Positions 878 to 34,268 of a DNA stretch of 64,000 bases are shown in pieces. The DNA is taken from the NCBI RefSeq assembly GCF_002494345.1, contig NZ_NXNI01000001.1, forward strand, positions 3,720,001-3,784,000. The letters are read 5' to 3'. Position 1 is the first letter of the stretch; the number at the start of each line of letters is the position of its first letter. The stretch comes from Natrinema ejinorense (lineage in GTDB: Archaea > Halobacteriota > Halobacteria > Halobacteriales > Natrialbaceae). The notes beneath the pieces are model-generated. The model saw nothing but the letters and a program-made list of their open reading frames with translations. It did not search any database and had not been told where the DNA came from. Position numbers and translations under genes: made by a program.

Positions 878-960
878 GGGCCCGCTCAATCCCGCCCGAC
901 GCGGTGCTTCGAAGCCTTTATCCGCGCGGTGGGCCTCCGTTCTCGTAAGTAATCACAACC

Positions 961-2479: not shown

Positions 2480-2567
2480 CGCCGGTGGTCGAGCCCTCCT
2501 CGTTTCGGTCCCGTTTTTCCACTAGCCACGAGACACCTTTTTCCCCATCTCCTCCCGAGTACCGCGT

Positions 2568-3434: not shown

Positions 3435-3518
3435 GACGGTCTGTTGTACCCTTCTACCGGCGCAACCACAGGGCAGTTCGCGGTTGCGTCGGCACTGACG
3501 TCCAGTTGTCCGTATGAG
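3432..3518. repeat. 86-bp hairpin repeat, family B, copy 1
   Basis: It starts with the TGA of the RimK-like gene and reads TGAGACGGTCTG, ending TTGTCCGTATGAG. It shares ACGGT...CCGT outer arms, GCACTGACG, and an inner stem GGCGCAACC/GGTTGCGTC with the copies near 40469, 56474, 60133 and 62017. It lies between two convergent genes, so a terminator role is possible. Confidence 0.7.
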
Positions 3519-3556
3519 AAGACCGAAAACGAATCGGTTCGACCGCGACTGTCCGA

Positions 3557-3958
3557 TTACTCGAGACTGATATCGGAGGACTGTTCGGCCCGATCGAAGA
3601 CGACTTCGAGGACGCCGTTGTTGTAGGTCGCCGATGCGCTGTGTTCGTTGACGCGGGTCGGCAGCGAGACGCGTTCGTCGTACTGGCGGTGGTCGCTCTC
3701 CGCGGAAATCGTCAGGGTATCGCCGTCGCACTCGAGTTCGATGTTGTCCTTTTCGACGCCAGGGAGGTCGGCGACAACGCGGACCTCGTCGTCGGTCTCG
3801 TGGATGTCGACGTGGGTGTCCATGCCGAACCCGTTATCGACCGCACTCGAGGAGTTGAAATCGACGTTGGCATCGGCTCCGTTCATCATCTCGTTCATCA
3901 TTCGTTCGATCTCGCGAAACAGGTCGTCGAAGGGTTCGTCGCGGTCGTCTCGGCGCAT
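3557..3958 (-). CDS. hsp20: Small heat shock protein, Hsp20/alpha-crystallin family
   Basis: 133 residues. An ATP-independent chaperone that holds unfolding proteins. The alpha-crystallin domain spans roughly residues 45-125: VDIHETDDEVRVVADLPGVEK, NIELECDGDTLTISAE, a Val-Ser-Leu-Pro strand, then NGVLEVVF, the GVLEV motif that ends the domain. The N-terminal arm (FDDLFREIERMMNEMMNG) is Met-rich and amphipathic, as expected for substrate binding and oligomer formation. A C-terminal IXI motif is not clear; the tail ends SSDISLE. Single gene, reading away from GAPDH's 3' end. Confidence 0.93.
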   Translation of the reverse strand: MRRDDRDEPFDDLFREIERMMNEMMNGADANVDFNSSSAVDNGFGMDTHVDIHETDDEVRVVADLPGVEKDNIELECDGDTLTISAESDHRQYDERVSLPTRVNEHSASATYNNGVLEVVFDRAEQSSDISLE

Positions 3959-4058
3959 GGACGGGTGTAGGGTGGCGGGTGGGAAAAACTTTCTGTCGCT
4001 GCTATACGACCGGGAGCCGATCGTCGGCCGGCGTGGGGATCGTCGTCCGGGACAGTCA

Positions 4059-4082
4059 CTCGCTCGAGTCGACTCGAGCGAG
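4059..4082. terminator. Perfect 24-bp palindrome downstream of GAPDH
   Basis: CTCGCTCGAGTC joined directly to its reverse complement GACTCGAGCGAG, 12 bp per arm and no spacer. It lies 17 bp after the GAPDH stop and before hsp20, the position expected of a terminator or mRNA 3'-end structure. No T-run follows on the minus strand, so a factor site is also possible. Confidence 0.4.
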
Positions 4083-4098
4083 AGAGACGGAAGCGCGT

Positions 4099-5112
4099 CT
4101 AGAACCCGATCCCGAGCGTCTCGTTGGTCGTTTCGATGCTTTCCTCGGCGTCGGCAGCGCCGGTCACGGCACGAACGGCATCGACGTTCTCCGGGACGAC
4201 GTCGCTCTCCTGGTGAATGCCCTGGAACAGGTAACAGTCCCGGCCGACGGTCGAGACGGATTCCTCCCAGATGCAGTTCTCCCAGATGTCGCCGCGCGGT
4301 CGGCCCGCGTCCAGCGCGTACTCCTTGAGTTTGCCGCTGCCGTCGATGTCCATCCGCTCGGGGATCAGGAACAGGCGCGACTCGTCGGCGAACAGTTCGC
4401 GGACGTCGGCCGCGTCGACTTCCTCCTCCAACGTGACGTTGAGGCTGTGCATGTGCATCAGCGTCGCGGGCACCTTCATGCCGAGCGTATCGATATCGAG
4501 ATCGGTGAAGATGGTCTCGACGTCGGGACCGTGGTGGGAGGGAATCGTCACCGGATTCGGGAGGATGTCGTTGATCGGCCCACGCGAGGTCTGGCCGGGG
4601 TCGCCACCGCGACGGACGAGCGTCGCGCGGACCTTCTCGACGCCGTAGGCCTCCCGGAGCGGTGCGATGACGCGAGAGAGTCCGGTCGTGTTACAGGAGA
4701 CGACGCGCACGTGGTCTGCGTCGACGGCGTCCTCGAAGTTCGAGCGCGCGTTGAAGCTCACGTCGGTGAGGTCGGCGTCCTCGCCGCCCTGATAGAGCGC
4801 GGGCGTGTCGTACTCCTCGTAGAGTTCCTTGTTCTGCGCGCCGATCCCCGACGGCGTGGCGTCGACGACGACGTCCGCGTCGGCCACCAGGTCCTCGACC
4901 GGCCCCGCGATCTCGAGGCCGGCCTCGGCGAACAGTTCCTCGCGTTCTTCGACGGCCGCATAGAGGGCAAAGCCCTTCTCGATCGCTGTTTCGGCCTCGA
5001 AGTTCGGCCGCGTCTTCGCAACTCCCAGTACCTCCATGTCGGGCTGTTGCCGGACGGCGTCCGCGACGCGCTTGCCGATCGTGCCGTAGCCGTTGATGGC
5101 GACCTGTAGCAT
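4099..5112 (-). CDS. gap: Type II glyceraldehyde-3-phosphate dehydrogenase (archaeal)
   Basis: 337 residues, full length. It interconverts glyceraldehyde-3-phosphate and 1,3-bisphosphoglycerate with NAD(P)(H) in the cytoplasm; in haloarchaea this form usually serves gluconeogenesis (family knowledge). The Rossmann motif is at the N-terminus ([15 protein letters not shown]), [12 protein letters not shown] near residue 89 is characteristic of the archaeal enzyme, and the catalytic cysteine is in [12 protein letters not shown] near residue 140. [20 protein letters not shown] and [10 protein letters not shown] are further family blocks. A TATA-like GATTATCC on the minus strand at 5139-5146 puts transcription within a few bases of the ATG, so the message is probably leaderless. 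Confidence 0.96.
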
Positions 5113-5138
5113 ATACTCGGGAGTGAACCACCGAGCGG

Positions 5139-5146
5139 GATAATCG
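5139..5146 (-). promoter_or_regulatory. TATA box of the GAPDH gene
   Basis: On the minus strand the sequence is GATTATCC, centred about 28 bp upstream of the GAPDH ATG. This spacing is the normal one for a leaderless haloarchaeal gene. Confidence 0.5.
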
Positions 5147-5321
5147 TTTCGAGCCCTCGCAGCCGATTGTTACTCGGATCGGAGTTCAGGTCGCTCTCGA
5201 GACCGATCGCGGTATTCGTTCGTCCCTTCACTCGAGCGGGTTCCCTGCTTCGAGGCCGGCCGAGAACCCCTCCGCGGGACCGAAGGCAAGACATATCGGC
5301 TCGCTCACCACACACGCACGT

Positions 5322-6278
5322 ATGGTAGCACTTCGAGACGCGGCCGAGACAGCGGTTCGTCAGTGTCTGGGTCTGGAGGCGGGAGAGTCGTGTGCGGTCG
5401 TTACCGACGACGAGCGCGAACCCATCGGGGAGGCGATCTACGAGGTGGCGACCGAGATCACCGACGACGCCGTGCTCGTCCGCTATCCGCCGGGGGAGAC
5501 CCACGGTAGCGAGCCGCCGGCACCGGTTGCAGCTGCGATGGCCGGGGCCGACGTGGTGCTCGCGCCGACGACCAAGAGCCTGAGCCACACTCGGGCCCGA
5601 ACCGAAGCCAACGAGGCGGGCGCGCGGGTTGCGACGCTGCCCGGCATCACCGAGGACGTCTTCACGACCGGCCTCGACGCCGATTACGAGTCCATCGCGG
5701 CCCACTGCGAAGCGGTCCGCGAGCAGGTCGCCGACGCCGACGAGATTCGCGTCATCACCGACGCTGGAACTGATATTACCTTCGACGTTGGCGGACGGGA
5801 CTGGTTCTCGGACACCGGTATCGTCCACGAACCCGGTCAAATGTCGAACCTCCCGGCCGGCGAGGTATTCATCAGTCCCACGACCGCGGACGGAACGTTC
5901 GTCGTCGACGGGACGATGCGTCCCCACGGGCTGCTCGAGGAGGGCCACCGGCTCACGTTCGAGGTCGAGGACGGCCTCGTCACGCACATTTCCGACGACG
6001 AGATCCGCGAAACGGTCGAGAACGCTGCCGAAGCGGTCGGGGACGCCGCGTACAACCTCGCGGAACTCGGTATCGGGACGAACGTGGCGGTCACCGAACT
6101 CGTCGGCTCGGTCCTCCTCGACGAGAAGGCCGGTGGTACCGTCCACATCGCGATCGGCGACAACGCGGGCATCGGCGGCGAGACGGAAGCGCCGATCCAC
6201 CTCGACGGGATCGTTCGGGAGCCGACCGTCCTCGCCGACGGCGATCCCGTCGAACTTCCCCAGCCGGACGGTTCCTGA
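5322..6278 (+). CDS. M29-family aminopeptidase (thermophilic metalloprotease family)
   Basis: 318 residues, shorter than bacterial M29 aminopeptidases (about 370-410). A predicted cytoplasmic metallo-aminopeptidase that trims N-terminal residues from peptides. The metal-binding half is clear: NLPAGEVFISPTTADGTFVV, then GIGTN, VTELVGSVLLDEKAGGTVHI and IGGETEAPIHLDGIV, which hold the Glu, His and Asp ligands known from AmpS/PepS. The shortening is in the N-terminal domain. A TATA-like ACATAT at 5291-5296 lies 28 bp before the ATG, indicating a leaderless transcript. Unlinked to peptide transporters here. Confidence 0.85.
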   Translation: MVALRDAAETAVRQCLGLEAGESCAVVTDDEREPIGEAIYEVATEITDDAVLVRYPPGETHGSEPPAPVAAAMAGADVVLAPTTKSLSHTRARTEANEAGARVATLPGITEDVFTTGLDADYESIAAHCEAVREQVADADEIRVITDAGTDITFDVGGRDWFSDTGIVHEPGQMSNLPAGEVFISPTTADGTFVVDGTMRPHGLLEEGHRLTFEVEDGLVTHISDDEIRETVENAAEAVGDAAYNLAELGIGTNVAVTELVGSVLLDEKAGGTVHIAIGDNAGIGGETEAPIHLDGIVREPTVLADGDPVELPQPDGS

Positions 6279-6417
6279 TCGGTTGGGAGCGCCCGAAGGT
6301 TCGGCTCCGTTTTGTGTCTATCTCGAGGGGAAATTCCGTCTGTGTCGATCGATTAAATCTTCACCGTATGTGTGGGAACCTAGTGGTTTCAAGTGGTGAT
6401 AGTGTGAGTTCGGACCG

Positions 6418-6999
6418 ATGAGCGGAACGAAGGGATACGACATTCGGGGGATAGAGCTCACGGACGACCGATACACTGTCGAGCAGGGACTCGTTCGGAA
6501 CAAGTACAAAGCGCTCGACGTCGACGGGAACGTCGTTCTCAGGGGCAAACAGAAGATGCTCAAGATGAAAGAGGAGTTTCCGTTCGTCGACGCCGACGGC
6601 AACGAGGTGTTCACGGTGAAAGCCGGCGGCATCATCGATGTCGCAGGGAACTACGTGCTTTCAGACGCCGAGACCGGCGAGAATCTCGTTATTCTGGATA
6701 ACGACTACTCGCTGCTTCAGGACACCTGGAAGATTCGCGATGCGACCACGGAGGCGAAACTGGCCGAAATCAACTCCCGTGGTGCGATGGTGACGCTGGC
6801 CCGGAACATCGTTCCGTTCGGCGGCTGGATCCCGCACAAGTACGAAATCACGGATCAAGAGGGCGCTCACGTCGGCTCCATCGACGGGCAGTTCTCGCTG
6901 CGGGACCGCTACGAGATCACCATCGACGACGCCAGCACCGTCCCGAAAGAGCCCATCGTTGCAGCGGCGATGGTCATCGACGCGATTCAGGGGAACTAG
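6418..6999 (+). CDS. LURP-one-related (scramblase-like fold) protein
   Basis: 193 residues with the repeated beta-strand pattern of the LURP1/tubby-like family: YTVEQGLVRNKYKALDVDGN, KMLKMKEEFPFVDADGNEVF, DVAGNYVLSDAETGENLVIL, SLLQDTWKIRD and GSIDGQFSLRDRYEITIDD. The family forms a 12-stranded barrel around a helix, and the C-terminal helix (KEPIVAAAMVIDAIQ) is present. Homologues are common in haloarchaea; no biochemical role is established, and the relation to phospholipid scramblases is structural only. It stands alone between the aminopeptidase and a zinc-finger gene. Confidence 0.8.
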   Translation: MSGTKGYDIRGIELTDDRYTVEQGLVRNKYKALDVDGNVVLRGKQKMLKMKEEFPFVDADGNEVFTVKAGGIIDVAGNYVLSDAETGENLVILDNDYSLLQDTWKIRDATTEAKLAEINSRGAMVTLARNIVPFGGWIPHKYEITDQEGAHVGSIDGQFSLRDRYEITIDDASTVPKEPIVAAAMVIDAIQGN

Positions 7000-7164
7000 T
7001 GGCGGTCCACGCCTGCAGTCGACGGTTGGAACGAGACTAGTGTTCTCTTCCGTGTCGGCTATAGGGACGAACTGATTTCCAGGGCGTTCGACCCAGCAGT
7101 CGTTATCTGACCGGGAGTAGGACGGGTTCAATCGGCTTTTAGGTGCGTAGCGTGTACAGGGGGT

Positions 7165-7818
7165 ATGAGCGAACTACCGGATCGGGTTCCGACGCCCTGT
7201 CCTTCGTGCTCGCCGGACCTCGAGACGGTCCACGAGGTACTCACGGACGGCGGCGGTACCCTCACCGTTCGATGCAGCGAGTGTAGTCACGTCCACAAGA
7301 TCCACCCCGAACGCGAGAGCGAAGTCACGCTCGACGTCGTCGTCTCCCAGGGCGGGGAATCGTTCACGGCGAACGTCACCACGCCCGAGGACGAGACCAT
7401 CGAGGTCGGCGACGAGTTCATCCTCGAGACCGAGGAAGTCCTCTCGACGGTTCGCGTGACGAGTCTCGAACTCGGCGGGCAAAAACGAGTCGAGGAAGCG
7501 TCTGCCGACGAGGTCGAGACCGTCTGGACCCGCGAGGTCGACAACGTCGGGGTCAACGTGACCGTCCATCCACAGGACGGGTCACGGGAGGACAGCCGGA
7601 GCATCACGGTCCACGTTCCCGGCGACTACGAGTTCGAGGTCGGTGCCGTCGACTCCTTCGGCGACGACGAGTTCGAGATCGACGCCTTCGTCGTCCGCGG
7701 CGACGCCGACGGCTACCGACGGGATCGCTTCGATATGGAGGGGGATGCTGCCTTCGCGAAGGACATCAAGCGCGTCTACGCCTACGACGAACAGAGCAGC
7801 GCCTGGTCCGCCTGGTAA
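7165..7818 (+). CDS. HVO_0476-family zinc finger protein
   Basis: 217 residues. The N-terminus has two CxxC pairs (CPSCSPDL and CSECSHVH) forming a zinc ribbon over residues 12-45, followed by acidic beta-rich domains (VTLDVVVSQGGESFTANVTT, VTSLELGGQKRVEEASADE, VGVNVTVHPQDGS). The layout matches the haloarchaeal family named after HVO_0476, of unknown function; a nucleic-acid or protein-binding role is a guess. A GGCTTTTAGG stretch 27 bp upstream acts as TATA box for a leaderless start at this ATG. Confidence 0.82.
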   Translation: MSELPDRVPTPCPSCSPDLETVHEVLTDGGGTLTVRCSECSHVHKIHPERESEVTLDVVVSQGGESFTANVTTPEDETIEVGDEFILETEEVLSTVRVTSLELGGQKRVEEASADEVETVWTREVDNVGVNVTVHPQDGSREDSRSITVHVPGDYEFEVGAVDSFGDDEFEIDAFVVRGDADGYRRDRFDMEGDAAFAKDIKRVYAYDEQSSAWSAW

Positions 7819-7971
7819 TTTTCTCGGCTACACGCGGCGGGGTCCTCACAGGCCTGTACGCCTTCGAACCTGACGGCACCTAGACCCACTCTTTCCCGCG
7901 TACACGCGTCCGTGCTGTTCGTGTCGATTCACCCTCGAGGCAGCCGTTCGAAAGACGGTGACACTGACCGC

Positions 7972-8268
7972 TTACTGAACGTACAGCGAATATGCGATCA
8001 CGAGGAAGCCGGCCAAAACGAGCAGACTTTCGAGTAAAATTCCCGTTATGAGGAGGACGTCGAGCAGTTCGTACAACATACCGGCGAGTACTAACCCGAG
8101 CGTGACCAGACCGAAGCCGGCCGCGAGATAGCCCAGTGATCGCTGTCGGGTTCGACGATACGCCTTGAACGCGAAATACGTGATAAACCCACCCACCACG
8201 AGCACGAGGGTCTTGACGATCGTCAGCGCGAGTGTCATCCCCGTCGGACCGGCTGGAAGCGCGTTCAT
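7972..8268 (-). CDS. Small three-helix membrane protein (DUF7521-like)
   Basis: 98 residues from the ATG that overlaps the stop of the upstream HTH gene (ATGA). Three hydrophobic segments are evident: LALTIVKTLVLVVGGFITYF, SLGYLAAGFGLVTLGLVLAG and LLITGILLESLLVLAGFLVI, with a basic loop (KAYRRTRQR) after the first. The pairing of a tiny winged-helix regulator with a three-helix membrane protein is a recurrent haloarchaeal arrangement; the function is unknown. Overlap and same strand imply co-translation with the regulator. Confidence 0.78.
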   Translation of the reverse strand: MNALPAGPTGMTLALTIVKTLVLVVGGFITYFAFKAYRRTRQRSLGYLAAGFGLVTLGLVLAGMLYELLDVLLITGILLESLLVLAGFLVIAYSLYVQ

Positions 8269-8642
8269 GTTTCCTTTCGTACCTCCGACCACAGCTCTGC
8301 GAGCCGTTCGTCGGCAGTCCGGGCCGGCCGCTCGATCTGGACAGACAGCGATCGGTCCTCGTCTAACCCGAGCGTAATCTCGTCGAACGCGACCGAGTAC
8401 TTGCTCGCGTGATGCCCGTCCTGTCGAATCTCCGTCGACTCCTCGAGCAGCGTCGCTTCGGTCAACAACTCGAGTTTACGGTACAGCGTCGACTGGGGGA
8501 TCTCACACTGCTTCGATAGCTCGGCAGCAGTCATGGGTTCCTCGAGATTGCGAATAATCTCACGGCAGTCGGGATCGTCCAACGCAGCGCAGATCTCCTC
8601 CGCGGACGTCGTCGACTCCGAAGCGAACGGGTCCCGGACCAT
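8265..8642 (-). CDS. Winged helix-turn-helix regulator (ArsR-like)
   Basis: 125 residues. The DNA-binding domain is DDPDCREIIRNLEEPMTAAELSKQCEIPQSTLYRKLELLTEATLLEE (quoted in spirit; key parts AAELSKQCEIPQSTLYRKL), a winged helix of the ArsR/HTH_20 type, followed by a beta wing (KYSVAFDEITLGL) and a C-terminal helix. I chose the ATG starting MVRDPF because GATAAACC lies about 27 bp upstream, matching leaderless transcription; an ATG eight codons earlier falls between the TATA box and the transcript start. Its stop overlaps the start of the membrane protein gene, so it probably senses or controls a membrane-linked signal. Confidence 0.82.
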   Translation of the reverse strand: MVRDPFASESTTSAEEICAALDDPDCREIIRNLEEPMTAAELSKQCEIPQSTLYRKLELLTEATLLEESTEIRQDGHHASKYSVAFDEITLGLDEDRSLSVQIERPARTADERLAELWSEVRKET

Positions 8643-8934
8643 TCGTGTTCCCCTTACGACGCACATGGTTTATCGGCATCGATGCGTCTCCCGTCGCTCT
8701 CACTCGTCTAACACGAAGCCTTCTTGCGCGTGCGCGCTCGAGTGCGACACCACGCGGGTATCATCCGGCTCGACCGTACCTTCGAGGGTGGGATGACCGG
8801 CCGACCTCCGCCCGCGTAACATTCTCTCGCCGCCGAGCCGAATCGCTCGAGCAGCGGCTGCGTTTATTACTGTCATCGCGACGATTATCTCGTGGAAAAC
8901 CGTGCCATGGTATCGGGTTCCGATACGAGTCTCG

Positions 8935-9345
8935 TTCGACGGCCTTATATGTGAACCGGGCATTCGATTGTAATGCGAACGACGTGGCGCACCCGCCACG
9001 TTCCCTCCGGCCGCAACCCGGCACGGAGGTAGGCATCACATCCGCTCTCGGACAATCCGTCGGTTCGATCCGACGGCCTTATCCGTACTCGAGGGCTCCA
9101 CTATGGATGTGTTCGTGGCCGGAGAAACCGTCCACGACGATCCGGAGCCCTTATACGTGCCTGGGCGTTCAGTTGTGATCGTACATCCCGCCGCCGGATG
9201 CGGTTTTCGGCGCGGGATCGATCCGACGCCCTTATATGTACGAGGGCATTCGGATGTGAACACGAAGAACGTGTGATCGACGGGACGTTCAACTCGTTCC
9301 GTCATCCCGGATGGATCGAACCCAAAGGGGTTATGTACCCCGGAC
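8935..9345 (+). promoter_or_regulatory. rrn promoters: Array of five rRNA operon promoters
   Basis: Five sites share the pattern GATCCGACGGCCTTATATGT(A) with a following GGGC(A/G)TTC: TATA cores at 8945 (TTATAT), 9079 (TTATCC), 9151 (TTATAC), 9232 (TTATAT) and 9331 (TTATGT). Each has a TTCGA or GATC(C/G) element ten bases before the TATA core, the signature of haloarchaeal rRNA promoters. Spacing is 134, 72, 81 and 99 bp. Multiple tandem promoters ahead of rRNA are established for haloarchaea; which of these five is strongest cannot be told here. No gene lies in the interval. Confidence 0.8.
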
Positions 9346-9419
9346 GGCGTACGATTACATCCGCAAGAGATGAGGATTCCACCCCTGCGGTCCGCCGTAC
9401 AGATGGGATCTGATGTTAG

Positions 9420-9480
9420 CCTTGGTAGTTCGGTGACGCCCGATCGGTCGGCGATCGTTGTGTCATCGAACGTGGACCCA
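9420..9480 (+). other. 16S processing stem, upstream half
   Basis: CTTGGTAGTTC, GCCCGATCGG and ATCGAACG are complementary, in order, to segments of 11056-11113 downstream of 16S. The two halves would form the long helix around pre-16S rRNA that archaeal splicing endonuclease cuts at a bulge-helix-bulge. Confidence 0.75.
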
Positions 9481-9495
9481 TTATGTGTGAGTGTG
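9471..9495 (+). promoter_or_regulatory. Sixth rRNA-type promoter-like site, inside the processing leader
   Basis: CATCGAACGTGGACCCATTATGTGTG resembles the other five, with TATA core TTATGT at 9481. A transcript from here would start about 9507, after the upstream half of the 16S processing stem, and so could not be processed in the usual way. It may be a relic or a chance match. Confidence 0.35.
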
Positions 9496-9545
9496 TACTA
9501 ACATTCACCGCCAACAGACCCTCCCCTCACGGGGAGTAATATAGC

Positions 9546-11018
<1,473 letters not shown>

Positions 11019-11055
11019 ACAGACCGGGACTGGGGCGTCGCCCCAGCCCACCTTT

Positions 11056-11113
11056 GCAGTCCGCGTTCGATCGACCAGCGTCTGGCCGATCGGGCACCTT
11101 TGAACTACCAAGG
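11056..11113 (+). other. 16S processing stem, downstream half
   Basis: GCAGTCCGCGTTCGATCGAC...GCCGATCGGGC...GAACTACCAAGG pairs with 9420-9480. It marks the 3' boundary of the pre-16S excision unit and precedes tRNA-Ala. Confidence 0.75.
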
Positions 11114-11131
11114 TTAACGCTTTACATTCCT

Positions 11132-11151
11132 GTCGCGCCTGACGGCGCGAC
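11132..11151 (+). other. Hairpin in the 16S-tRNA spacer
   Basis: GTCGCGCC-TGAC-GGCGCGAC, an 8-bp perfect stem six bases before tRNA-Ala. Probably a spacer structure helping tRNA 5' processing. Confidence 0.45.
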
Positions 11152-11157
11152 GGGAGT

Positions 11158-11229
11158 GGGCCCATAGCTCAGTGGTAGAGTGCCTCCTTTGCAAGGAGGA
11201 TGCCCAGGGTTCGAATCCCTGTGGGTCCA
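11158..11229 (+). tRNA. tRNA-Ala (anticodon UGC)
   Basis: 72 nt. The acceptor stem GGGCCCA pairs with TGGGTCC including the G3-U70 wobble that is the identity signal for alanine. The anticodon stem CCTCC/GGAGG encloses the loop TTTGCAA with anticodon TGC. The T-arm is CAGGG-TTCGAAT-CCCTG. The discriminator is A and no CCA is encoded. A tRNA-Ala in the 16S-23S spacer is the standard arrangement in haloarchaeal rRNA operons. Confidence 0.98.
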
Positions 11230-11464
11230 TGTCTCGGAGGCCGATCGAATCGTGCCCCTTAAGTGGGGCAAACGACTTCGATCTAATCCGAACAACGAAC
11301 CGATGCACCACCTCGTGTAAACGCGGGTGGGAAGGGTTAATGCATGCCGCGTCTACGGCATGCAGATGAGACCGTGTGTACGTGTAGTCCAGGCGTCCAC
11401 TGGACCCGTTCCCGGGTCACTACGTGGTCGTAACTTCTGGTTACGACTGCCGATCCGATGAACG
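11230..11464. other. Spacer between tRNA-Ala and 23S
   Basis: No gene. It includes GCCCCTTAAGTGGGGC (a short hairpin at 11251-11266), ACTTCGATCTAATCCG near 11276, which could be an internal rRNA promoter, GCATGCCGCGTCTACGGCATGC (hairpin at 11342-11363), and the 23S processing stem. Confidence 0.5.
11379..11420 (+). other. 23S processing stem, upstream half
   Basis: ACGTGTAGTCCAG, GCGTCC, GGACCCGTTC and GTCAC are complementary in order to parts of 14402-14446. The long helix would enclose pre-23S rRNA and carry the splicing-endonuclease cut site. Confidence 0.78.
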
Positions 11465-14384
<2,920 letters not shown>

Positions 14385-14401
14385 TACATCGCATTGGATC
14401 C

Positions 14402-14446
14402 GTGACGCGAGAACGGGTCCGGACGCAAACTGGACTACACGTATAC
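14402..14446 (+). other. 23S processing stem, downstream half
   Basis: GTGACGCGAGAACGGGTCCGGACGC...CTGGACTACACGTATAC (position quoted, key blocks only) pairs with 11379-11420 over more than 30 positions with small internal loops. Confidence 0.75.
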
Positions 14447-14464
14447 TACGGTCTTGGACACACC

Positions 14465-14507
14465 GACCGATATTGGAATGACGACGGTTCGATTCCGTTG
14501 ATCGGCG
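14465..14507 (+). other. tRNA-like processing element upstream of 5S copy 1
   Basis: CCGAT at 14467 pairs with ATCGG at 14501, and between them GACGG-TTCGATT-CCGTT forms a T-arm with a canonical seven-base loop. The D and anticodon arms are absent. In Haloferax volcanii tRNase Z is known to make the 5S 5' end by recognising such a tRNA-like structure; the position directly before 5S fits that role. Confidence 0.65.
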
Positions 14508-14628
14508 TTACGGCGGCCACAGCGGCGAGGTACCTCCCGTACCCATCCCGAACACGGAAGATAAGCTCGCCTGCGTTACGGTGAGTACTGGAGTGGGCGA
14601 CCCTCTGGGAAACTCGTTTCGCCGCCAC
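14508..14628 (+). rRNA. rrf: 5S ribosomal RNA, copy 1
   Basis: TTACGGCGGCCACAGCGGCG at the start and GTTTCGCCGCC at the end close helix I (GGCGGC/GCCGCC). The internal CCCGTACCCATCCCGAACAC and GGGAAACTCG blocks are diagnostic. About 121 nt. Confidence 0.95.
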
Positions 14629-14651
14629 CACTCATATCGACCAATACGGTC

Positions 14652-14694
14652 GACCGATCGTGGTCTGACGGCGGTTCGATTCCGCCGATCGGCA
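14652..14694 (+). other. tRNA-like processing element upstream of 5S copy 2
   Basis: CCGATC at 14654-14659 pairs with GATCGG at 14687-14692; GGCGG-TTCGATT-CCGCC is a perfect T-arm. The discriminator-like A at 14694 is the last base before 5S, where tRNase Z would cut. Confidence 0.68.
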
Positions 14695-14815
14695 TTACAG
14701 CGGCCACAGTGGCGAGGTACCTCCCGTACCCATCCCGAACACGGAAGATAAGCTCGCCTACGTTTCGGTGAGTACTGGAGTGGGCGACCCTCTGGGAAAT
14801 TCGATTCGCCGCTTC
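14695..14815 (+). rRNA. rrf: 5S ribosomal RNA, copy 2
   Basis: Differs from copy 1 at about eight positions. The change of G to A near the 5' end is matched by C to T at the 3' end (AGCGGC/GCCGCT), keeping helix I paired, so this copy is likely functional. About 121 nt. Confidence 0.93.
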
Positions 14816-14825
14816 CATTCATTTC

Positions 14826-14853
14826 AACCCACACAGCAACTGCTGTGTGGGTT
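14826..14853 (+). terminator. rRNA operon terminator hairpin
   Basis: AACCCACACAGCA and TGCTGTGTGGGTT form a perfect 13-bp stem with a two-base spacer, followed by TTCGTATTTGTTT. It begins 11 bp after the second 5S gene and is the only strong hairpin there. Confidence 0.7.
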
Positions 14854-14934
14854 TTCGTATTTGTTTCGAGACAGCGACACACCGGTTGCTACTACGAGGT
14901 CTTCAAGAGGTAAAATAACCGCAACCGGATCGGT

Positions 14935-16281
14935 CTATACTAACTGGATGACGTTTCCGTTCGAAGTCACGTGGAGATCTCGTCCAAGCTTGTACCCCTG
15001 ATTGGTTGCCAGATCGACGTATCCCGAAAAGCCGCTCATGTTCTGGTGGGCTGGGATGACGTGCTCGGGTTGCAGTGCATCGAGCATCTCGTAGTGGCCC
15101 TCCTGACAGAGGTGACCGGAGACGTGGACATCGTCGTAGATCCGCGCTCCCTGCATGCGGAGTAGCTTTTCGGCCTGGTAGCGCTGGCCCTCGTTGGTCG
15201 GTTCCGGAATGACGCGAGCGGAGAAGACGACCTTGTCACCGTCCTCGAGTTCGTAGGGCGTTTCGCCACGACCCATCCGTGTGAGCGTTGCTCGAGGCTC
15301 ACCTTGATGGCCGGTGACGACGGGGAGGAAGTTCTCTTTCCCTTCGTTCATGATTCGCTCGAAGGTCTGTTCGATGGATTGACGGTAGCCGACCATTTCG
15401 ACGTCGGAGGGGAAGTCGACCCCGATCTGTTTTGCGGTACCGGAGTAGGTTTCCATCGAGCGGCCGAGGAGGATCGGTGTACGATCGATATCGCGAGCGA
15501 ATTCGATCAGCGATTTCACGCGGGCGATGTGACTTGAGAAGGTGGTGGCGACGATGCCGCCGTCGTAGTCCTCCATGCTGTAGAGGACGTCCCGGAGGTG
15601 TTCGCGGGCGACGTTTTCGGACGGCGTTCGGCCCTTCTTGTTGGCGTTGGTACAGTCCTCGATGTAACAGAGGACGCCCTCTCCCTCGCGGCCGATCTCG
15701 CGGAAGCGCTCCATATCGATCGGGTCGCCGATGACGGGCGTGTGGTCCATCCGTTTGTCGAGTCCGTAGACGACCGCGCCTTCGGGCGTGTGGAGGACCG
15801 GGTTGATTGCCTGGATAATCGAGTGGGTGACGTTGACGAACTCGAGTTCGACTGCGCCGGAGTCGCCGATCGACATCGTTTCGCCGGCGTCCATCGCGAC
15901 GAGCTCGTTTTCGGTATTGAACTTCCCCTCCTCCTCGAGTTCGCCCTTGACCAGTTCGAGGGTGAACGGCGTCGCGACGATGGGTGCGTCGTATCGGTGT
16001 GCGAGTTTGCTGATCGCACCGATGTGGTCGAGGTGGCCGTGAGTGGGGACGATCGCTTTGACGTCACCTTCGAGGTCGCTCATGACCCGGTCGTCGGGAA
16101 TGGCTCCCATATCGATCAGGTCGAGGCTGTGCATGCCTTCGGTTCGGATGTTGTCGTGGATCAGGACCTTCGACAGGTTCAGTCCCATGTCGAAGATCAC
16201 GATGTCGTCACCGGCGCGGACAGCCGTCATCTGTCGGCCGACTTCCTCGTAACCGCCAATCGTTGCAATTTCAATTTCCAT
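14935..16281 (-). CDS. rnj: Ribonuclease J (beta-CASP metallo-beta-lactamase RNase)
   Basis: 448 residues. RNase J degrades and trims RNA 5' to 3' in the cytoplasm using two zinc ions. The metallo-beta-lactamase motif THGHLDH (residues 80-86) supplies three His and one Asp; further blocks are [36 protein letters not shown], a beta-CASP insert ([53 protein letters not shown]) and a final [19 protein letters not shown] with HVIPAHQN. The C-terminal domain found in bacterial RNase J is lacking, as usual in archaeal forms. It converges on the rRNA operon, whose terminator lies 82 bp away. Confidence 0.93.
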
Positions 16282-26355: not shown

Positions 26356-27963
26356 ATGGACAGCGGTGTGGTCGGGACGCCCATGCAGACGGCATCCGAC
26401 CTGCTCGTTAGCTGTCTCGAGGCCGAAGGCGTCGACCGCGTCTTCGGGGTTCCGGGCGAGGAGATCGAGGACCTGCTGTTCTCGTTGCGCGACTCCTCGA
26501 TTCGGTTCGTTCCGACGCGCCACGAACAGGGAGCCGCGTTCATGGCCGACGTTCACGGCCGCCTCACTGGGGAGGCGGGCGTCTGCTGCTCGACGCTCGG
26601 TCCCGGCGCGACGAACCTCATAACTGGCGTCGCCGACGCCCAACTCGACAAGAGTCCGGTCGTCGCGATCACCGGCCAGGGGAGTCGGGAGCGACTGCAC
26701 AAGGAGAGCCACCAGGCCCTGGATATCGTCGACGTCTTCGAGCCGCTCGTCGCGTGGAACTCCCAGATCGCCGAGCCCGAGATCACGCCCGAATCGGTGC
26801 GAAAAGCGTTCAAGACCGCCGAATACGAGAAACCGGGCGCGACTCACCTCGAGTTCCCCGAAGACGTCGCGAGCGAGGCCGTCGACGCCGACCCGATCCC
26901 GACTCGCGATCCGGTTCGGCGACCGGATCCGGACGCGGAGTCGGCCCGCCGGGCGGCGCGGCTGATCGAGGCCGCCGACCGCCCGATCGTCCTCGCGGGC
27001 AACGGCGCGGTACGGACTCGCACGTCGGAGCACATCCGCGCCATCGTCGATCGCGTCGGGATTCCGGTCGTCGAGACGTACATGGGAAAGGGCTCGATCT
27101 CCGACCGCGAGCCGGCCTCGCTGATGACGCTCGATTCGGGGCCCGAAGGCGAGGCCGAACTGGCGATCGAACGGGCCGACTGCGTCGTCGCCGTCGGCTA
27201 CGATATCGCCGAACACGATCCCGCGGGCTGGAACCCCGACCTCGAGAAGACGATCGTCCACGTCGATTACGAACCCGCAGAGGTGTATCGACACTACAAC
27301 CCGGACGTGGAGATCGTCGCCGACGTGGGCGCGGCGCTTTCCGCCATCGACGAGCGCCTGCCCGACGAGGCGTGTTCGCTGTGGTGTGGCGACCTCCACG
27401 ACCGGCTGCTCGAGGCAGTGACCGAGGCCCCGGCGGCGGACGATCCGGTGACGGTGAGAAACGCGTTGCCGCTGTTGCGCGAGACGATGGCCGACTCGGA
27501 CGTCCTCGTTTCGGACGTAGGCAGTCACAAGATGGCGATCGCCCAGTCGTTTCCGACCTACGAGCCGAATACGTGCGTGATCTCGAACGGCCTGGCGAGC
27601 ATGGGAATCGCCGTTCCGGGCGCGCTCGCGGCCGATCTGGCGGTCGATTCGAACGTGGTCGCTGGGACCGGCGACGGCGGTTTCATGATGAACGCGGCGG
27701 AACTCGAGACCGCGACGCGGCTGTCGTGTGGCTTCACGACCGTCGTCTTCGACGACGAGGATTACGGACTGATCTCCGAGAAGCAACGCGAGCATCGCGG
27801 CGAGCACGTCGGCACGGCGTTGACGACGCCCGATCTGGTGACGTTCGCCGAGAGCTTCGGCATCGAGGCCTATCGCCCCGACACGTGGGCCGAGATCGAG
27901 GCGGCGTTCGCCGAGGCCGTGCCCTCCGACGAGTTGGCGGTGATCCACGTCCGACTCGAGTGA
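26356..27963 (+). CDS. Thiamine-diphosphate enzyme, acetolactate synthase large-subunit-like
   Basis: 535 residues. The family condenses two pyruvates to acetolactate with thiamine diphosphate. The N-terminal domain has the catalytic Glu in RHEQGAAFMADVHGRLTG and GATNLITGVADA; the middle domain RPIVLAGNGAVR; the C-terminal domain has the diphosphate motif GTGDGGFMMNAAELETATRL. The Asn normally closing this motif is replaced in FDDEDYGLI, as in some haloarchaeal paralogues. GGAGGGG nine bases upstream supports the ATG at 26356. No regulatory small subunit or ilvC follows, so this is probably not the biosynthetic ilvB of the genome, and a catabolic role is possible. Confidence 0.87.
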   Translation: MDSGVVGTPMQTASDLLVSCLEAEGVDRVFGVPGEEIEDLLFSLRDSSIRFVPTRHEQGAAFMADVHGRLTGEAGVCCSTLGPGATNLITGVADAQLDKSPVVAITGQGSRERLHKESHQALDIVDVFEPLVAWNSQIAEPEITPESVRKAFKTAEYEKPGATHLEFPEDVASEAVDADPIPTRDPVRRPDPDAESARRAARLIEAADRPIVLAGNGAVRTRTSEHIRAIVDRVGIPVVETYMGKGSISDREPASLMTLDSGPEGEAELAIERADCVVAVGYDIAEHDPAGWNPDLEKTIVHVDYEPAEVYRHYNPDVEIVADVGAALSAIDERLPDEACSLWCGDLHDRLLEAVTEAPAADDPVTVRNALPLLRETMADSDVLVSDVGSHKMAIAQSFPTYEPNTCVISNGLASMGIAVPGALAADLAVDSNVVAGTGDGGFMMNAAELETATRLSCGFTTVVFDDEDYGLISEKQREHRGEHVGTALTTPDLVTFAESFGIEAYRPDTWAEIEAAFAEAVPSDELAVIHVRLE

Positions 27964-28146: not shown

Positions 28147-31100
28147 ATGCAGCGCTCACCGACGTACCGCACCAACCGCGGCCTGTTCTCGACGCGCTAC
28201 CTCGAGGAACGGCTGCCCGAGACGAACGCCTGGGACGCGGTCGACGAGGGCGAGCTTCGGGCGGCCTACGACGACCTCAGAACTCGATTGGCGGAGACGG
28301 AGGGGGCGTCGGCTCGAAGCGACGCCGCGCGAACCGAGCGGTTCGTCCGATCGGTGTTTCGGACCCTCGAAATCCCGTTTGCAGTCGACGAGGGCTCCGA
28401 TCGAACCGATCCGCGGCCCGACTACGGTTTCTTCCGCTCCGCGTCGGCGGCCCGCGCCGCGTCCGGTCGACGGCAGTCCGGCGGCGAGTTGTATGCGGAT
28501 GCGGTTGCCGTCGCTCACTCGACGCGATGGGGACGCCCGCTCGGTGGACACGCGAGCGGCGAGTGGACGCGCGCGTTCGATCCCAGCCATCGGCTCTCCG
28601 CGTCGTTCCGGGAGACGGCCACCGAGTGGGCCCTGCTCACCAACGGGAAACGGTGGCGGCTCTATCACGCGTCGACGGGCAGCCGGTTGGATGCCTACTA
28701 CGAGATCGACCTTCCGACGCTCCTGGAAACGGGCGATCTCGAGGCGTTCAGGTATTTCTACTGTTTCTTTCGCCACGAGGCGTTTCTCGAGGCTCCCGAC
28801 GGCGAGTCGTTTCTCGACGCGGCGGTCCGCGAGAGCGACGCGTTCGCACGCGAGCTCGTCGCGGCTCTCGAGGAAAACGCCGCCGAGGCGCTCGCGGTGC
28901 TCGCCGAGGGGTTCCGCCGGCACCCCGACAACGATCTCGGCGAGAGCGACCTCGAATCGCTTTTCGAGGGGGCGCTCGTCTACCTGTATCGTCTGTTGAT
29001 CGTCCAGTACGCCGAGGCGACCGGCCACGAACCGTTCGAAGCGACCGACGCGAGTGGTGAGCGATCGGGACGCCACAGCGCGCTCGAGCAGGTGATCGCC
29101 ACGGACCGTGACGACGGCACCTCGACTGACGGTGACTGCCAGCGCGCGCTCCAGTCGCGTCTGGACGACCTGTTTCGAACTATCGGTTCGGGGGCCCGAT
29201 CGCGTGAGGGGTCCGAGACGGCACTCTCCCCGCCGGCATATCCGGGCTGGCTGTTCCGCACTGCTCCCAGCGCGGATGACAGACAGGAACTGCGATTCCT
29301 CGCGACCCATTCGATCGGTGATGCCGCCCTCGAGCGGGTCGTCGAGTTGCTCACCCGACGGCCGGCTCCGGCCGGCGAGGGAACGACGACCATCGACTAC
29401 GCCTCGCTCGATGGACGCCACCTCGGGAGCCTCTACGAGCGGTTGCTCGAGTACGAACTCGCCCTCGCCGGGGAGTCGCTGACGCTCGAGGCAGCGGAGT
29501 ACGGAGCCACCGGGGTCGCCGCGAGCGTCGAAGCGGGCGAGGTGTACGTGACGACTGGCAGCGGCGACCGGAAGGCGACGGGGTCGTACTACACGCCCGA
29601 GCACGTCGTCTCCTACGTCGTCGAGCGGACGCTCGAGCCCCTCGTCGACGACGTCCGCGAGGAGACGCGGGCACGGGACGCTCCGGGCGAGCCCGGGTTC
29701 GCCGCGGCGTTTACCGACCGGCTCCTCGAGGTAACCGTGCTCGATCCGACGATGGGGACGGGCCACTTCCTGACACACGCCGTCGAGTTCCTCGCTCGGG
29801 AGCTCGTCGCCGCACACGCGACGCGGGCGGATCGTGAGGCCGTCGCCGACGAACGCGACGTTCACTGGGCGCGCCGAGCGGTCGCCTCGCGGTGTGTCTA
29901 CGGCGTCGACTGTGATCCGCTGGCGGTCGAACTGGCGCGGACGTCGCTGTGGCTGCGGACGCGTGGCGCTGGTGGCTCCCTCGAGTCACTCCAGCGCCAC
30001 TTGCAGACCGGGAACGCGCTCGTGGGAACCAGCCCCGATCGCGAGATCCCGCGTCCCGATCGCGAGCGGCCGGACGGCTGCGACAGCACGGCGATGGCGG
30101 GGGATTCGCCGGCGGGCGACGCGTGGAACCGGCGTCGAGACCGGCTCGAGGCGACGGCGAACGTCCGGACGGCACGCGAGTTCGGGCTGGACGGCGTTCC
30201 GGACGACGCCGTCGAACGGGTAGCGTCCGCGGTCGACGACGACGAGGCGTGGACCCGGCTCGCTGGCACGGGGTGGTTCCAAACGGCGCAGTCGTGGGCC
30301 GACATCGAACGGTGTTTTCACTGGCCGCTGGCGTTCCCGGAGGTGTGTGATGACGGCGGCGGGGCCGAAATCGGCGGAAGCGGGTTCGACGCGATCGTCG
30401 GGAATCCGCCGTGGGTCGCCACGGCGGGTCGGAGCGACACGAGCGCGAGCATGGGGACGGAGCTTCGATCCTATCTCGCCAGTACGTTCGAGGCCACCGA
30501 GAACCAGTTCGACCTCGCCGTCGCGTTCTACGAGCAGGCGATCCGGCAGTCCCACGACGGCCGCGTCGGCATCGTCGTCCCCGATTCGATCCTCACCCGC
30601 GAGGGGAACGAACCGATTCGGGAGTTCGTCCTCGAGAACGCGTCGCTGTCGCGAATCGTCCGGATCGGGACCGCGTTCCCGGACGCCGAAACGGGGGCGG
30701 TCGTCTGCATCAGCGGCGACGACGACGGCGGGGTCCGCTGTGCGGATGCGAGCGATCGGACGATGCTGGCGTCGCTTTCGTACACCGTGATTCCCGAGCG
30801 GGTTTTCGAACAGCGTGGTTCGACCCGGTTTCTGCTCTCCCTCGACGAGGAGGCGCGATCGATCCTGGAAACGGTCGACCGACGACCGCCGCTCGCGGCG
30901 TTCGCGACGGTTTCGCGGGGCGAAGAGAGTAGCAAGCGGGCCCCACATCTGTCCTCGAGTCAGCAGCGATCGGGGGACAGTCGGCCGATCGCACCCGGGA
31001 GCGCGGTGTGTCGCTACGGGATCGACGCGGACGACCTCCGCTATATCCGAGCGGCCGACGTCGCGAAAGACGAGGGGCAGTATCGCGGTCCGAAACTCGT

Positions 31101-32004
31101 CTTCAGACAGACCAGCGATTCGCTCGTCGGGACCTACGACGCGACCGACCTGGTCACGATCAAGTCGGCGTACACCATCCACACCGGATCGGGCTCGAGC
31201 GACGAACTCAAACACGTGCTCGGCGTGCTGAACTCGCCGCTGTTGAACTTCTATCACCACTACACGCACGCCGCGTACCGATCCGTCTTCCCCCAGATCA
31301 ACCAGTCGACGTTCGAAGCGTTTCCCATCGCGATCGAGGAGGGGCCGGATCCGGCACTCGTCGAGGCAGTCGACGACCGACTCGAGCGGACGGCCGAGCG
31401 ATCGGCGATCTCGCGGAACGTCCTCGACTATCTGGGACAGTACGAAGATGGCGCGTCACTGGGGTCCCTCTCGGGTTGTCGCCCCGTCGCGGGCGTCGGG
31501 GCGACCAAACTCGCCGCCACGACCACGGAGTGGGCCGATCTTCGACTCGGAACGATCGACGTGACAGCGGAGGGTCGGTCGATCGCGCTGTCGGCGAGCG
31601 TTCGATACAAACCCGACGAACGCGGTCTCGATACCGATCAGTGGGGGTACACGGAGACCGAGCCGATTCCGGCGCTCGAACTCGGTGGCAACGACGCCGA
31701 ACGGCGATTGCTCGTCGAGAGCTTCCTCCCCGCTGCCGTCGACAGGGCTCGTGGGTTCGCCGGGTTCAGAAAACCCGCGACCAAAACGATCTCGCCACTC
31801 GAGCGCCTCGAGGCGGTGAGACTCCCTCGCCTCGAGGACGTCGTGGACGGGCTACGCGCGTTCGGAGGGCGCCGCGCCCGCGCCCGACGACTGGACGAGC
31901 GGATCGCGGAACTCGATCGTCGGATCGCCGATCGGGTGTTCGATCTCTACGGGATCGCCCCCGAGAGCCGGGAACGGATTCGCCGCGAATTCGGGGGTCG
32001 CTGA
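28147..32004 (+). CDS. Eco57I/type IIG-like DNA adenine methyltransferase, nuclease motif degenerate
   Basis: 1285 residues. N-terminal region (to about 230) has the PD-(D/E)xK layout: RPDYGFF near residue 88 and AVAVAHSTRWGRPLG near residues 116-130, then WALLTNGKRWRLYH. In relatives the second motif is A(E/D)AKRWGRPL; here Asp/Glu and Lys have become His and Thr. Helicase-free linker, then YYTPEHVVSYV (residue about 480), motif I LDPTMGTGHF near 531 and motif IV GNPPW near 752, an N6-adenine methylase pair. The C-terminus has a TaqI-like specificity region with NSPLLNFYHHY and QINQSTFEAFPI. No partner restriction, specificity or BREX/DISARM genes flank it. Confidence 0.9.
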   Translation: MQRSPTYRTNRGLFSTRYLEERLPETNAWDAVDEGELRAAYDDLRTRLAETEGASARSDAARTERFVRSVFRTLEIPFAVDEGSDRTDPRPDYGFFRSASAARAASGRRQSGGELYADAVAVAHSTRWGRPLGGHASGEWTRAFDPSHRLSASFRETATEWALLTNGKRWRLYHASTGSRLDAYYEIDLPTLLETGDLEAFRYFYCFFRHEAFLEAPDGESFLDAAVRESDAFARELVAALEENAAEALAVLAEGFRRHPDNDLGESDLESLFEGALVYLYRLLIVQYAEATGHEPFEATDASGERSGRHSALEQVIATDRDDGTSTDGDCQRALQSRLDDLFRTIGSGARSREGSETALSPPAYPGWLFRTAPSADDRQELRFLATHSIGDAALERVVELLTRRPAPAGEGTTTIDYASLDGRHLGSLYERLLEYELALAGESLTLEAAEYGATGVAASVEAGEVYVTTGSGDRKATGSYYTPEHVVSYVVERTLEPLVDDVREETRARDAPGEPGFAAAFTDRLLEVTVLDPTMGTGHFLTHAVEFLARELVAAHATRADREAVADERDVHWARRAVASRCVYGVDCDPLAVELARTSLWLRTRGAGGSLESLQRHLQTGNALVGTSPDREIPRPDRERPDGCDSTAMAGDSPAGDAWNRRRDRLEATANVRTAREFGLDGVPDDAVERVASAVDDDEAWTRLAGTGWFQTAQSWADIERCFHWPLAFPEVCDDGGGAEIGGSGFDAIVGNPPWVATAGRSDTSASMGTELRSYLASTFEATENQFDLAVAFYEQAIRQSHDGRVGIVVPDSILTREGNEPIREFVLENASLSRIVRIGTAFPDAETGAVVCISGDDDGGVRCADASDRTMLASLSYTVIPERVFEQRGSTRFLLSLDEEARSILETVDRRPPLAAFATVSRGEESSKRAPHLSSSQQRSGDSRPIAPGSAVCRYGIDADDLRYIRAADVAKDEGQYRGPKLVFRQTSDSLVGTYDATDLVTIKSAYTIHTGSGSSDELKHVLGVLNSPLLNFYHHYTHAAYRSVFPQINQSTFEAFPIAIEEGPDPALVEAVDDRLERTAERSAISRNVLDYLGQYEDGASLGSLSGCRPVAGVGATKLAATTTEWADLRLGTIDVTAEGRSIALSASVRYKPDERGLDTDQWGYTETEPIPALELGGNDAERRLLVESFLPAAVDRARGFAGFRKPATKTISPLERLEAVRLPRLEDVVDGLRAFGGRRARARRLDERIAELDRRIADRVFDLYGIAPESRERIRREFGGR

Positions 32005-32147: not shown

Positions 32148-34268
32148 GTGACCGACGATGCGGTGGCGGAGCTGGATCGACGAACGGTCCTCAGTGCGGT
32201 CGCCGGACTCGGTGGGGTCGCCGTTGCCGGCTGTTCGGCGTTCGAGCGGGAGACCGACGGGCAGACGACCCAGGTCGACGCGGACAGGGCTCGAGCGTTA
32301 GCGACGCGGTTCGCCCCGTCGTTCTATTTCGATACCCACGAGCCGTGGTTTCCGACGGATCCACGACCGTATAGCAGCGAACGCGACGGCGAGACGGTGG
32401 TCACTGGATTCGACGCCTTCGACGGCTACCACGAACGGTACAGTGATGGCGAGCCGCCGAACCCGACGGTGTTCTATCACGCCGTCGAGTACGAGGAGTC
32501 GCCGCTGGCAGTCGTCCAGTTCTGGTGTTACTCGGCGTTCGATCAGTTCACGACCAATTTCCACTGGCACGACTGGGAGGTACTTCACGTCTTCGTCGAT
32601 ACGGAGACCGAGGGGCCCCAACTGTACGTCGCCAGCTCCCACTCCCGAACCGTTCCCAACAACGAGTTTCTGGATCCCGAGCCCGACATGACGCCCCGAA
32701 TCCTCTCGGAACTGGGCTCGCACTCGAGTGCGCTTTCGGTCAACGACGTAGCCGACCGCTTCCAGCGGGTCGCCGTCGAGGACCTGCTCGCAGACATCAC
32801 GAACACGGCTCTCGAGGGGATCGAGGACCTCGCCGATATCCCGCTGGCCTACGGGCTGCCACGCGACGAGGGATCGACGCTTCCCTATCTCGTCCCGGAG
32901 TACGAGGGCCAACCGATATACGATCACGAGAAGTTGCCGTCCGTCACCCGCGAGTCGCTGATCACCGACGAGCTAACCGTCCGTTCGTTCGACGCACTGA
33001 CGTCACCGCCGACTGATCTCCCGGCGCGGGAAACTGGACTCGTCTTCCAGCACCGTGATCGGACGGGCGAGGCCGACATCGAGTACGAGCTGGTTCCGAG
33101 CGCCGATCTCGAGCATATCACGGCGTTTACCGGGCCACAGTTGAGCTTCGAGTTCTCGGTTCCGGATCAGGTCGAAGACGCCCTCGCTGGCCATCTCACG
33201 ACGACGGGGACGCCGTGGAGCCAGCCTCGCTACGAGAACCCGGCGGCGGACATCTCCGTCCCGACCCATCGAACGGCCCTGGCCGATCGGTACGATGCCA
33301 TCGGCGAGGCCGCACCGATCAACACCGTCGTCAGCCGCGTTACGGAAACGATCACGGCCGAGGACGCACCAGCCGACGAAGGCCTGACCACGACCGACAC
33401 GAGCCTCGAGGCGGTCGCCCTGCTCGAAAGCGATCCCGAGGCGGTCCCGACGTTCGGCGGCGTCGCCGTCGTACAGGGTGTTCCGGCCGGTGACCATCGA
33501 CTGACGGTCAACAGTGCCGGTCGCGCGCCACACAGCGAGCGAGTCTCCGTTTCGGCGGCCGGAACCACGACGGTTGCCGGCGTCGACGGCGAGATCCCGC
33601 TGGTCGCTCGCGACCGGGCGACGAAACTCGAGGTCGGCGACGAGACGGCGGCGACCGATCTCGCGGCGGTGGCCGTCGAAGACGATTTCGCCGGGCGACT
33701 GTACGAGTCGTCGGTCGACGGGAGCGACGCCGTTTACGTTCACGACGGCGGAGCCTACACGACCGAGGTTCGGGACGGCGACGACGCCATCGGGGCCTAT
33801 CGGGTCAACCCGGATCCCGGGGCCAAAGGGGCGGTTCGCATCGAGCGGCCGGAGACCGGGAAAGCCTCGCTCGCCGAGTTCGTGGTGGACGTCGCCGAGG
33901 AGACCAGGGCGGCGGTCGCGGCCCTCGGCGACGACGAAGCGGGTGGCAGTGGTCCGACCGACGATGACGACACAGCGGACGATGCCACCGACGAAAGCCG
34001 TGGCTCCTCGAACGCCGTCACCGGACTCGAGCGCGCTCTCGCGGCCGTGGTCGACGCTGCACGGCGAGCCGCCGAACGCGCACGCGATGGGGACCGAGGC
34101 AACGCCGACAGACAACTCGAGACCGTACTCGAGCGACTCGAGCGCGTGTCGGAGCGACTCGCCGAGGCCCGTGACGAGGTGCCCGAGTCGCTCTCGAACG
34201 CATCAGAGAACCGACTCGAGCAAGCGACACGCCGTTCCGAACAGGCGAAGGAAGCCACGAAACTCTAA
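32148..34268 (+). CDS. Large Tat lipoprotein with Vps62-like domain
   Basis: 706 residues from a GTG. The signal DRRTVLSAVAGLGGVAVAG ending in Cys is twin-arginine plus lipobox, so the protein is anchored outside the membrane. The next 200 residues (ALATRFAPSFYFDTHEPWF, NPTVFYHAVEYEESPLAVV, FWCYSAF, NFHWHDWEVLHVFVD, GPQLYVASSHSR) resemble the Vps62/DUF946 domain, whose function is unknown. The middle is beta-rich with an Ig-like segment (TFGGVAVVQGVPAGDHRL), and the end is a long amphipathic coiled coil (residues about 620-706). A 22-codon frame upstream overlaps by GTGA but is not predicted to be transcribed. Confidence 0.72.
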   Translation: MTDDAVAELDRRTVLSAVAGLGGVAVAGCSAFERETDGQTTQVDADRARALATRFAPSFYFDTHEPWFPTDPRPYSSERDGETVVTGFDAFDGYHERYSDGEPPNPTVFYHAVEYEESPLAVVQFWCYSAFDQFTTNFHWHDWEVLHVFVDTETEGPQLYVASSHSRTVPNNEFLDPEPDMTPRILSELGSHSSALSVNDVADRFQRVAVEDLLADITNTALEGIEDLADIPLAYGLPRDEGSTLPYLVPEYEGQPIYDHEKLPSVTRESLITDELTVRSFDALTSPPTDLPARETGLVFQHRDRTGEADIEYELVPSADLEHITAFTGPQLSFEFSVPDQVEDALAGHLTTTGTPWSQPRYENPAADISVPTHRTALADRYDAIGEAAPINTVVSRVTETITAEDAPADEGLTTTDTSLEAVALLESDPEAVPTFGGVAVVQGVPAGDHRLTVNSAGRAPHSERVSVSAAGTTTVAGVDGEIPLVARDRATKLEVGDETAATDLAAVAVEDDFAGRLYESSVDGSDAVYVHDGGAYTTEVRDGDDAIGAYRVNPDPGAKGAVRIERPETGKASLAEFVVDVAEETRAAVAALGDDEAGGSGPTDDDDTADDATDESRGSSNAVTGLERALAAVVDAARRAAERARDGDRGNADRQLETVLERLERVSERLAEARDEVPESLSNASENRLEQATRRSEQAKEATKL

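Follow-up and report, generated by a model that had tools for sequence, protein, structure and literature searches.

Orphan DNA methyltransferases (MTases) are usually seen as leftovers of restriction systems, and the transition has rarely been caught with every stage present. In Bacillus subtilis, DnmA (M.BsuPY79I) is a functional orphan N6-adenine (m6A) methylase and a relic of a restriction-modification (RM) system; it recognizes the non-palindromic GACGAG and affects gene expression (PMC9973331). In haloarchaea, persistent orphan MTases include those specific for CTAG (HG1) and CATTC (HG4), and a "BREX-like" MTase (HG5, CTGGAG) persists in Haloterrigena (PMC10609329).

Here we describe a gene from Natrinema ejinorense that may represent a repeated version of this transition. 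It lies in a 64,000-nucleotide stretch of the genome (the window; contig NZ_NXNI01000001.1, positions 3,720,001 to 3,784,000; all coordinates below refer to the window and its forward strand, unless stated otherwise), where positions 28147-32004 form an intact, frameshift-free ORF of 1285 aa with an ATG start. Motif statistics, phylogenetic trees, dN/dS values, a fold model and the published methylome assignment of an ortholog support the view that the nuclease was lost and the methyltransferase retained. We estimate at roughly three in four the probability that the product is an orphan m6A methyltransferase, nuclease-dead and methylation-competent, made from a single-chain enzyme of the type IIG/DISARM DrmMI-like kind.

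Domain architecture and catalytic motifs

The protein has the Eco57I/TaqI_C architecture of an adenine DNA methyltransferase, with Pfam matches to Eco57I (1.7e-23), N6_Mtase and TaqI_C, and its top PADLOC models are DrmMI (1e-65) and also type IIG enzymes. The original prediction had read the methylase motifs as intact and the nuclease motifs as largely lost, and this reading was borne out. The motifs YYTP (motif X region, 29587-29598), DPTMGTGHF (SAM motif I, 29743-29769) and NPPW (catalytic motif IV, 30403-30414) are all intact. In the N-terminal restriction-endonuclease-like domain (aa 5-225, 28159-28821), which is predicted to be inactive, RPDYGFF with its PD motif (P91-D92, 28417-28422) and LTNGKRWRLYH (28636-28668) are both retained as quoted. 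The segment AHSTRWGRPL, where relatives read ADAKRW or VEAKQW, has H124-S125-T126 (28516-28524) in place of the catalytic (D/E)-A-K, and the NPxxQI block is reduced to DPSHRL, with R149 (28591-28593) replacing the conserved Gln of the NPSYQI or ASHQI found in relatives. The loss of the catalytic acid and Lys can be made more precise: the second acid, the Lys and the Gln are gone, and the first acid, D92 of the PD motif, remains.

An AlphaFold model of the N-terminal domain, of middling quality (pLDDT 68, pTM 0.74), shows two successive core beta strands, the first beginning with D92 and the second ending with H124-S125; R149 sits on the helix after them. Among known structures the domain most resembles the nuclease domain of DrdV, a type IIG enzyme (Z 7.7 over 125 residues), and it also matches EcoR124I HsdR (Z 5.7); both Z values fall below the caution line of Z 8 and are to be read with the profile matches of intact relatives, namely MmeI_N and HSDR_N. 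Foldseek with this domain returned nothing at E < 0.001, a PDB sequence search with it gave chance matches only, and the model of an intact N-terminal domain (L065) was poor (pLDDT 51). Overall, the modeling supports a nuclease-type fold that is kept, with an altered catalytic strand.

Loss of nuclease residues among relatives

We aligned 46 relatives, comprising 24 haloarchaeal proteins that share the target recognition region (TRD) of the window protein and 22 others, among which we counted L149, a protein with the same TRD. For L143, L150 and L151 the N-terminus is aligned with some uncertainty. None of the 24 same-TRD proteins has the catalytic Lys, all of the 22 others have it, and exactly the same split (0/24 versus 22/22) is seen for the Gln of NPSYQI, which is far beyond chance. 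Judged by these aligned motifs, the loss of nuclease residues is common to the whole clade and extends beyond the single strain. Several orthologs read D-V-R at the catalytic motif, less clearly dead than the H-S-T of the window protein, and some related members lack PD too, or even the entire N-terminus (L043), with the TRD still kept. An Arg occupies the place of the lost Gln in 21 of the 24 same-TRD proteins, on both of the backbones described below; the Gln-to-Arg replacement looks more like a repeated specific change than like random decay.

L149, a distant relative from another haloarchaeal family, combines the TRD of the window protein with PEYGLF, ADAKRW and NPSYQI; its nuclease motifs being intact, it may still cut. 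It is surrounded by PAS/histidine kinase genes (L149, 1862-16561). Among the relatives with other TRDs and intact motifs, some are plasmid-borne and some are found beside DISARM or helicase genes.

Phylogeny of the two backbones

Within the genus, the same-TRD proteins fall into two sets. Clade A (L031-L039, L126, L127), whose members are orthologs of the window protein with 48-62% identity, is present in 12 of the 29 genomes, and clade B (L040-L043), with a different N-terminus, in four; the remaining 13 have no same-TRD protein. A search of genome contigs with the single protein returned just four relatives, distant and intact. In trees built with quick searches, the C-terminal half places the 24 orphan proteins in one clan (support 97) with L149 adjoining, the TRD joins A, B and L149 in one clade (support 100), and both the N-terminus and the methylase core nest clade B among intact type-2 enzymes. 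A constraint of A and B (a group defined after inspection of the trees) to one origin was rejected (delta lnL 334, AU p 3e-26). The simplest reading of these trees is that one TRD was joined to two backbones, the nuclease then being lost in each; with the same TRD on the different backbone of clade B, the losses number at least two.

By sliding identity, cutting relatives of one type share ~70-90% identity in their backbones (aa 120-460) and 15-35% in their TRDs, whereas between clades A and B of the orphan group the TRD shows 44-63% identity and the backbones just 14-57% (aa 1-460). Selection is inverted: cutters conserve the nuclease and swap TRDs, whereas the orphan group conserves the TRD (~aa 761-1080, 30427-31386), its most conserved part, and lets the nuclease drift.

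Probable DNA target and possible role of the methyl mark

In the SMRT methylome of N. versiforme BOL5-4, GACGAAC (100% modified) was assigned to FEJ81_15005 and GAACAYC to FEJ81_15230, in gene-to-motif assignments termed putative by the study itself (PMC6696651). The ortholog of the window protein in this strain is L032 (genome G015), at 3,033,949-3,037,743 of the BOL5-4 chromosome. We related it to the published tags by locus-tag interpolation, anchored on the probable methylase genes for CTAG and CATTC and on the beginning of pNVE500; a PF00145 search in G015 yielded no CCWGG anchor gene. The interpolation places FEJ81_15005 within ~10 kb of L032, and 45 ORFs separate L032 from the next large Eco57I gene downstream (42-48 with minimum ORF lengths of 45-80 aa, and 39 with 100 aa), in agreement with the 45-gene tag difference. 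We infer that L032 is FEJ81_15005 and that its target is GACGAAC, modified as m6A, as for motifs of this kind. This mapping suggests that the nuclease-dead members probably still methylate, and by way of the N. versiforme ortholog the target of the window protein is probably GACGAAC or a close variant. CTGGAG, the HG5 site, was rejected as a candidate because it is missing from the N. versiforme motif list.

At least two losses around one TRD suggest that the methyl mark itself is useful. We tentatively propose that one recognition module may have been domesticated repeatedly, at least two backbones with the same TRD having each lost the nuclease and settled on haloarchaeal chromosomes; the mark (probably GACGAAC) would then be an epigenetic signal under selection in Natrialbaceae and certain other haloarchaea. 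An enzyme that only methylates could also be of benefit by protecting the chromosome from a restriction enzyme that recognizes the same site, as a kind of vaccine, and L149, with this very TRD and intact nuclease motifs in another family, may be such a cutter. We consider this rather unlikely, since L149 is the only such candidate cutter found among the ~390 genomes of the class searched by TRD and reads E instead of D at its first acid; moreover, the best plasmid matches to the TRD stay below 28% identity, and no TRD carrier was found in viral contigs. GACGAAC is also not depleted in carriers (observed/expected ~1.1, compared to ~1.2 in non-carriers), although these ratios do not discriminate and are uninformative on avoidance. 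An epigenetic or regulatory role akin to that of DnmA is favoured over protection from a cognate cutter.

Selective constraint and gene loss

Pairwise dN/dS of the nuclease domain is 0.24-0.87 in the orphan group versus 0.07-0.15 in intact pairs. The TRD (0.17-0.38) is the lowest domain in eight of the nine orphan pairs, a comparison for which the TRDs are too divergent in four of the five intact pairs. The methylase core is raised as well (0.24-0.61 in orphans versus 0.08-0.17 in intact relatives), so that constraint appears to be relaxed throughout, yet still purifying, with dN/dS below 1 for every domain in the orphan group.

Values raised over the whole protein could be those of a decaying remnant, a gene that no longer restricts, serves no selected function and is being lost from the genomes. 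The patchy distribution in the genus fits this scenario, and so does a deletion in the same-species genome G041, where the comparison of L152 with the window shows that the segment 28023-31877 is gone and that only ~127 bp of the 3' end of the gene is left as a scar; the gene is therefore dispensable. We nevertheless regard such decay as improbable, given purifying dN/dS in every domain with the TRD most constrained, the intact methylase motifs, the full-length ORFs in all 12 genomes of the genus with clade A and the fully modified motif (putatively) assigned to an ortholog. In addition, neighbourhoods are shared in four chromosomal settings: the site of the window gene is common to four other species, a second site occurs in seven more genomes, a third is that of clade B and a fourth is found in related genera. 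In G041 (at L152, ~9334-9343) the deletion spares just the last ~41 codons of the methylase gene.

Genomic setting

The upstream neighbour (26356-27963) encodes an acetolactate-synthase-like TPP enzyme, no restriction partner, and is conserved at loci both with and without the MTase; the downstream neighbour (32148-34268) encodes a 706-aa protein present in 11 of 12 checked genomes that have no same-TRD MTase. Elsewhere in the window, positions 9546-14817 hold an rRNA operon (16S, tRNA-Ala, 23S) followed by tandem 5S rRNA genes (14509-14630 and 14696-14817).

This setting bears on the possibility that the protein is a modification subunit served by the nuclease of another protein, in a BREX-, DISARM- or split MmeI-like arrangement. 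Split MmeI-like systems have been reported (PMC4752239), a complete DISARM locus contains one relative as its DrmMI, other relatives adjoin SNF2 helicases (the latter among same-backbone, other-TRD relatives, some of which are plasmid-borne), and PglX models give weak matches. On the other hand, none of the eight neighbours of the window gene matched a PADLOC model for defence genes, BREX models included, no drmA, drmB or other drm gene was found beside it among the neighbours profiled, and the genes flanking the MTase stay adjacent in genomes without it, which makes a partner nuclease very improbable. Membership in DISARM is ruled out by the genomic context, and membership in the BREX PglX family by a score (52.6 bits) well under the cut-off of 500 together with the lack of BREX neighbours. 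A plasmid relative in Halobacterium NRC-1 (NC_001869, NC_002608; 103476-109033) is apparently split by an ISH3-like transposase gene.

Least of all can we credit a nuclease still active via other residues, as some nucleases of the PD-motif fold are: PD and, in the model, a nuclease-like fold are retained, but the second acid, Lys and Gln are all missing, dN/dS of the domain is raised, and related members have lost PD too, or the whole N-terminus, while keeping the TRD.

Comparison with known systems

Our preferred reading is that a single-chain RM ancestor (type IIG or DISARM DrmMI-like) would have given rise to an orphan N6-adenine DNA methyltransferase. The N-terminal domain would have kept its fold, and with the second catalytic acid and the Lys missing the protein should not cut; with the methylase core and the TRD remaining it should add m6A, presumably on one strand of an asymmetric site. 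The original prediction, in which a type IIG enzyme may have become a pure methyltransferase, is supported as regards nuclease loss and methylase retention. As a name for the parent, "type IIG" alone is too narrow, because close relatives include DISARM DrmMI proteins.

This group brings together relatives that cut, a single same-TRD relative with intact motifs and two or more lineages in which the nuclease died independently; individual residues can be compared across all of them, and published SMRT data supply a candidate target. Selection on the methyl mark itself thereby becomes testable in an archaeal genus with carrier and non-carrier strains.

The window protein resembles type IIG enzymes of the MmeI/DrdV kind in being a single chain with an N-terminal restriction-like domain, an N6-adenine methylase core and a C-terminal TRD (the combination of core and TRD in one polypeptide typical of MmeI/Eco57I-like enzymes), and in the structural and profile matches of the N-terminal domain (DrdV for the window protein itself, MmeI_N for intact relatives). 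It differs from them in having no intact PD-(D/E)XK endonuclease motif, owing to H124-S125-T126 and R149, and in a TRD that is conserved rather than diversified. In DISARM, the likeness is to DrmMI, its best PADLOC match, and a homologue (L056) is part of a DISARM locus with drmA, drmB, drmC, drmMII and drmD-like gene models (PADLOC). The window gene has no DISARM neighbours, and the nuclease-like motifs lost here are intact in L056; DrmMI may itself be a nuclease. The L056 locus (1-15959), whose DrmMI reads PDYGFF, ADAKRW and NPSYQI, also has an AspBHI/HNH endonuclease gene embedded (L056, 4921-6042). For proteins annotated as type IIG or DrmMI, the nuclease motif needs to be checked before restriction is inferred.

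Several features of an orphan methyltransferase are seen here, namely intact methylase motifs, absence of an intact nuclease motif and absence of an adjacent cognate restriction gene (eight neighbours, PADLOC); methylation in vivo would be a further one, the N. versiforme ortholog being putatively assigned the fully modified GACGAAC. The closest functional parallel that we found, likened by description, is DnmA, another orphan m6A methylase from an RM relic; it differs in being bacterial and in its reported role in gene expression. HG5, also compared by description, is a PglX-like haloarchaeal MTase from a related named genus, and the window protein matches PglX weakly; the difference lies in its CTGGAG site, which is not among the N. 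versiforme motifs. HG1 and HG4 are likewise solitary methylases maintained in haloarchaeal lineages; unlike the window protein, they are type II enzymes of small size that carry no dead nuclease domain, and the distribution of the window gene is patchier. Overall, the window protein would belong to a known class, that of orphan methylases derived from RM enzymes, with the loss repeated around one TRD.
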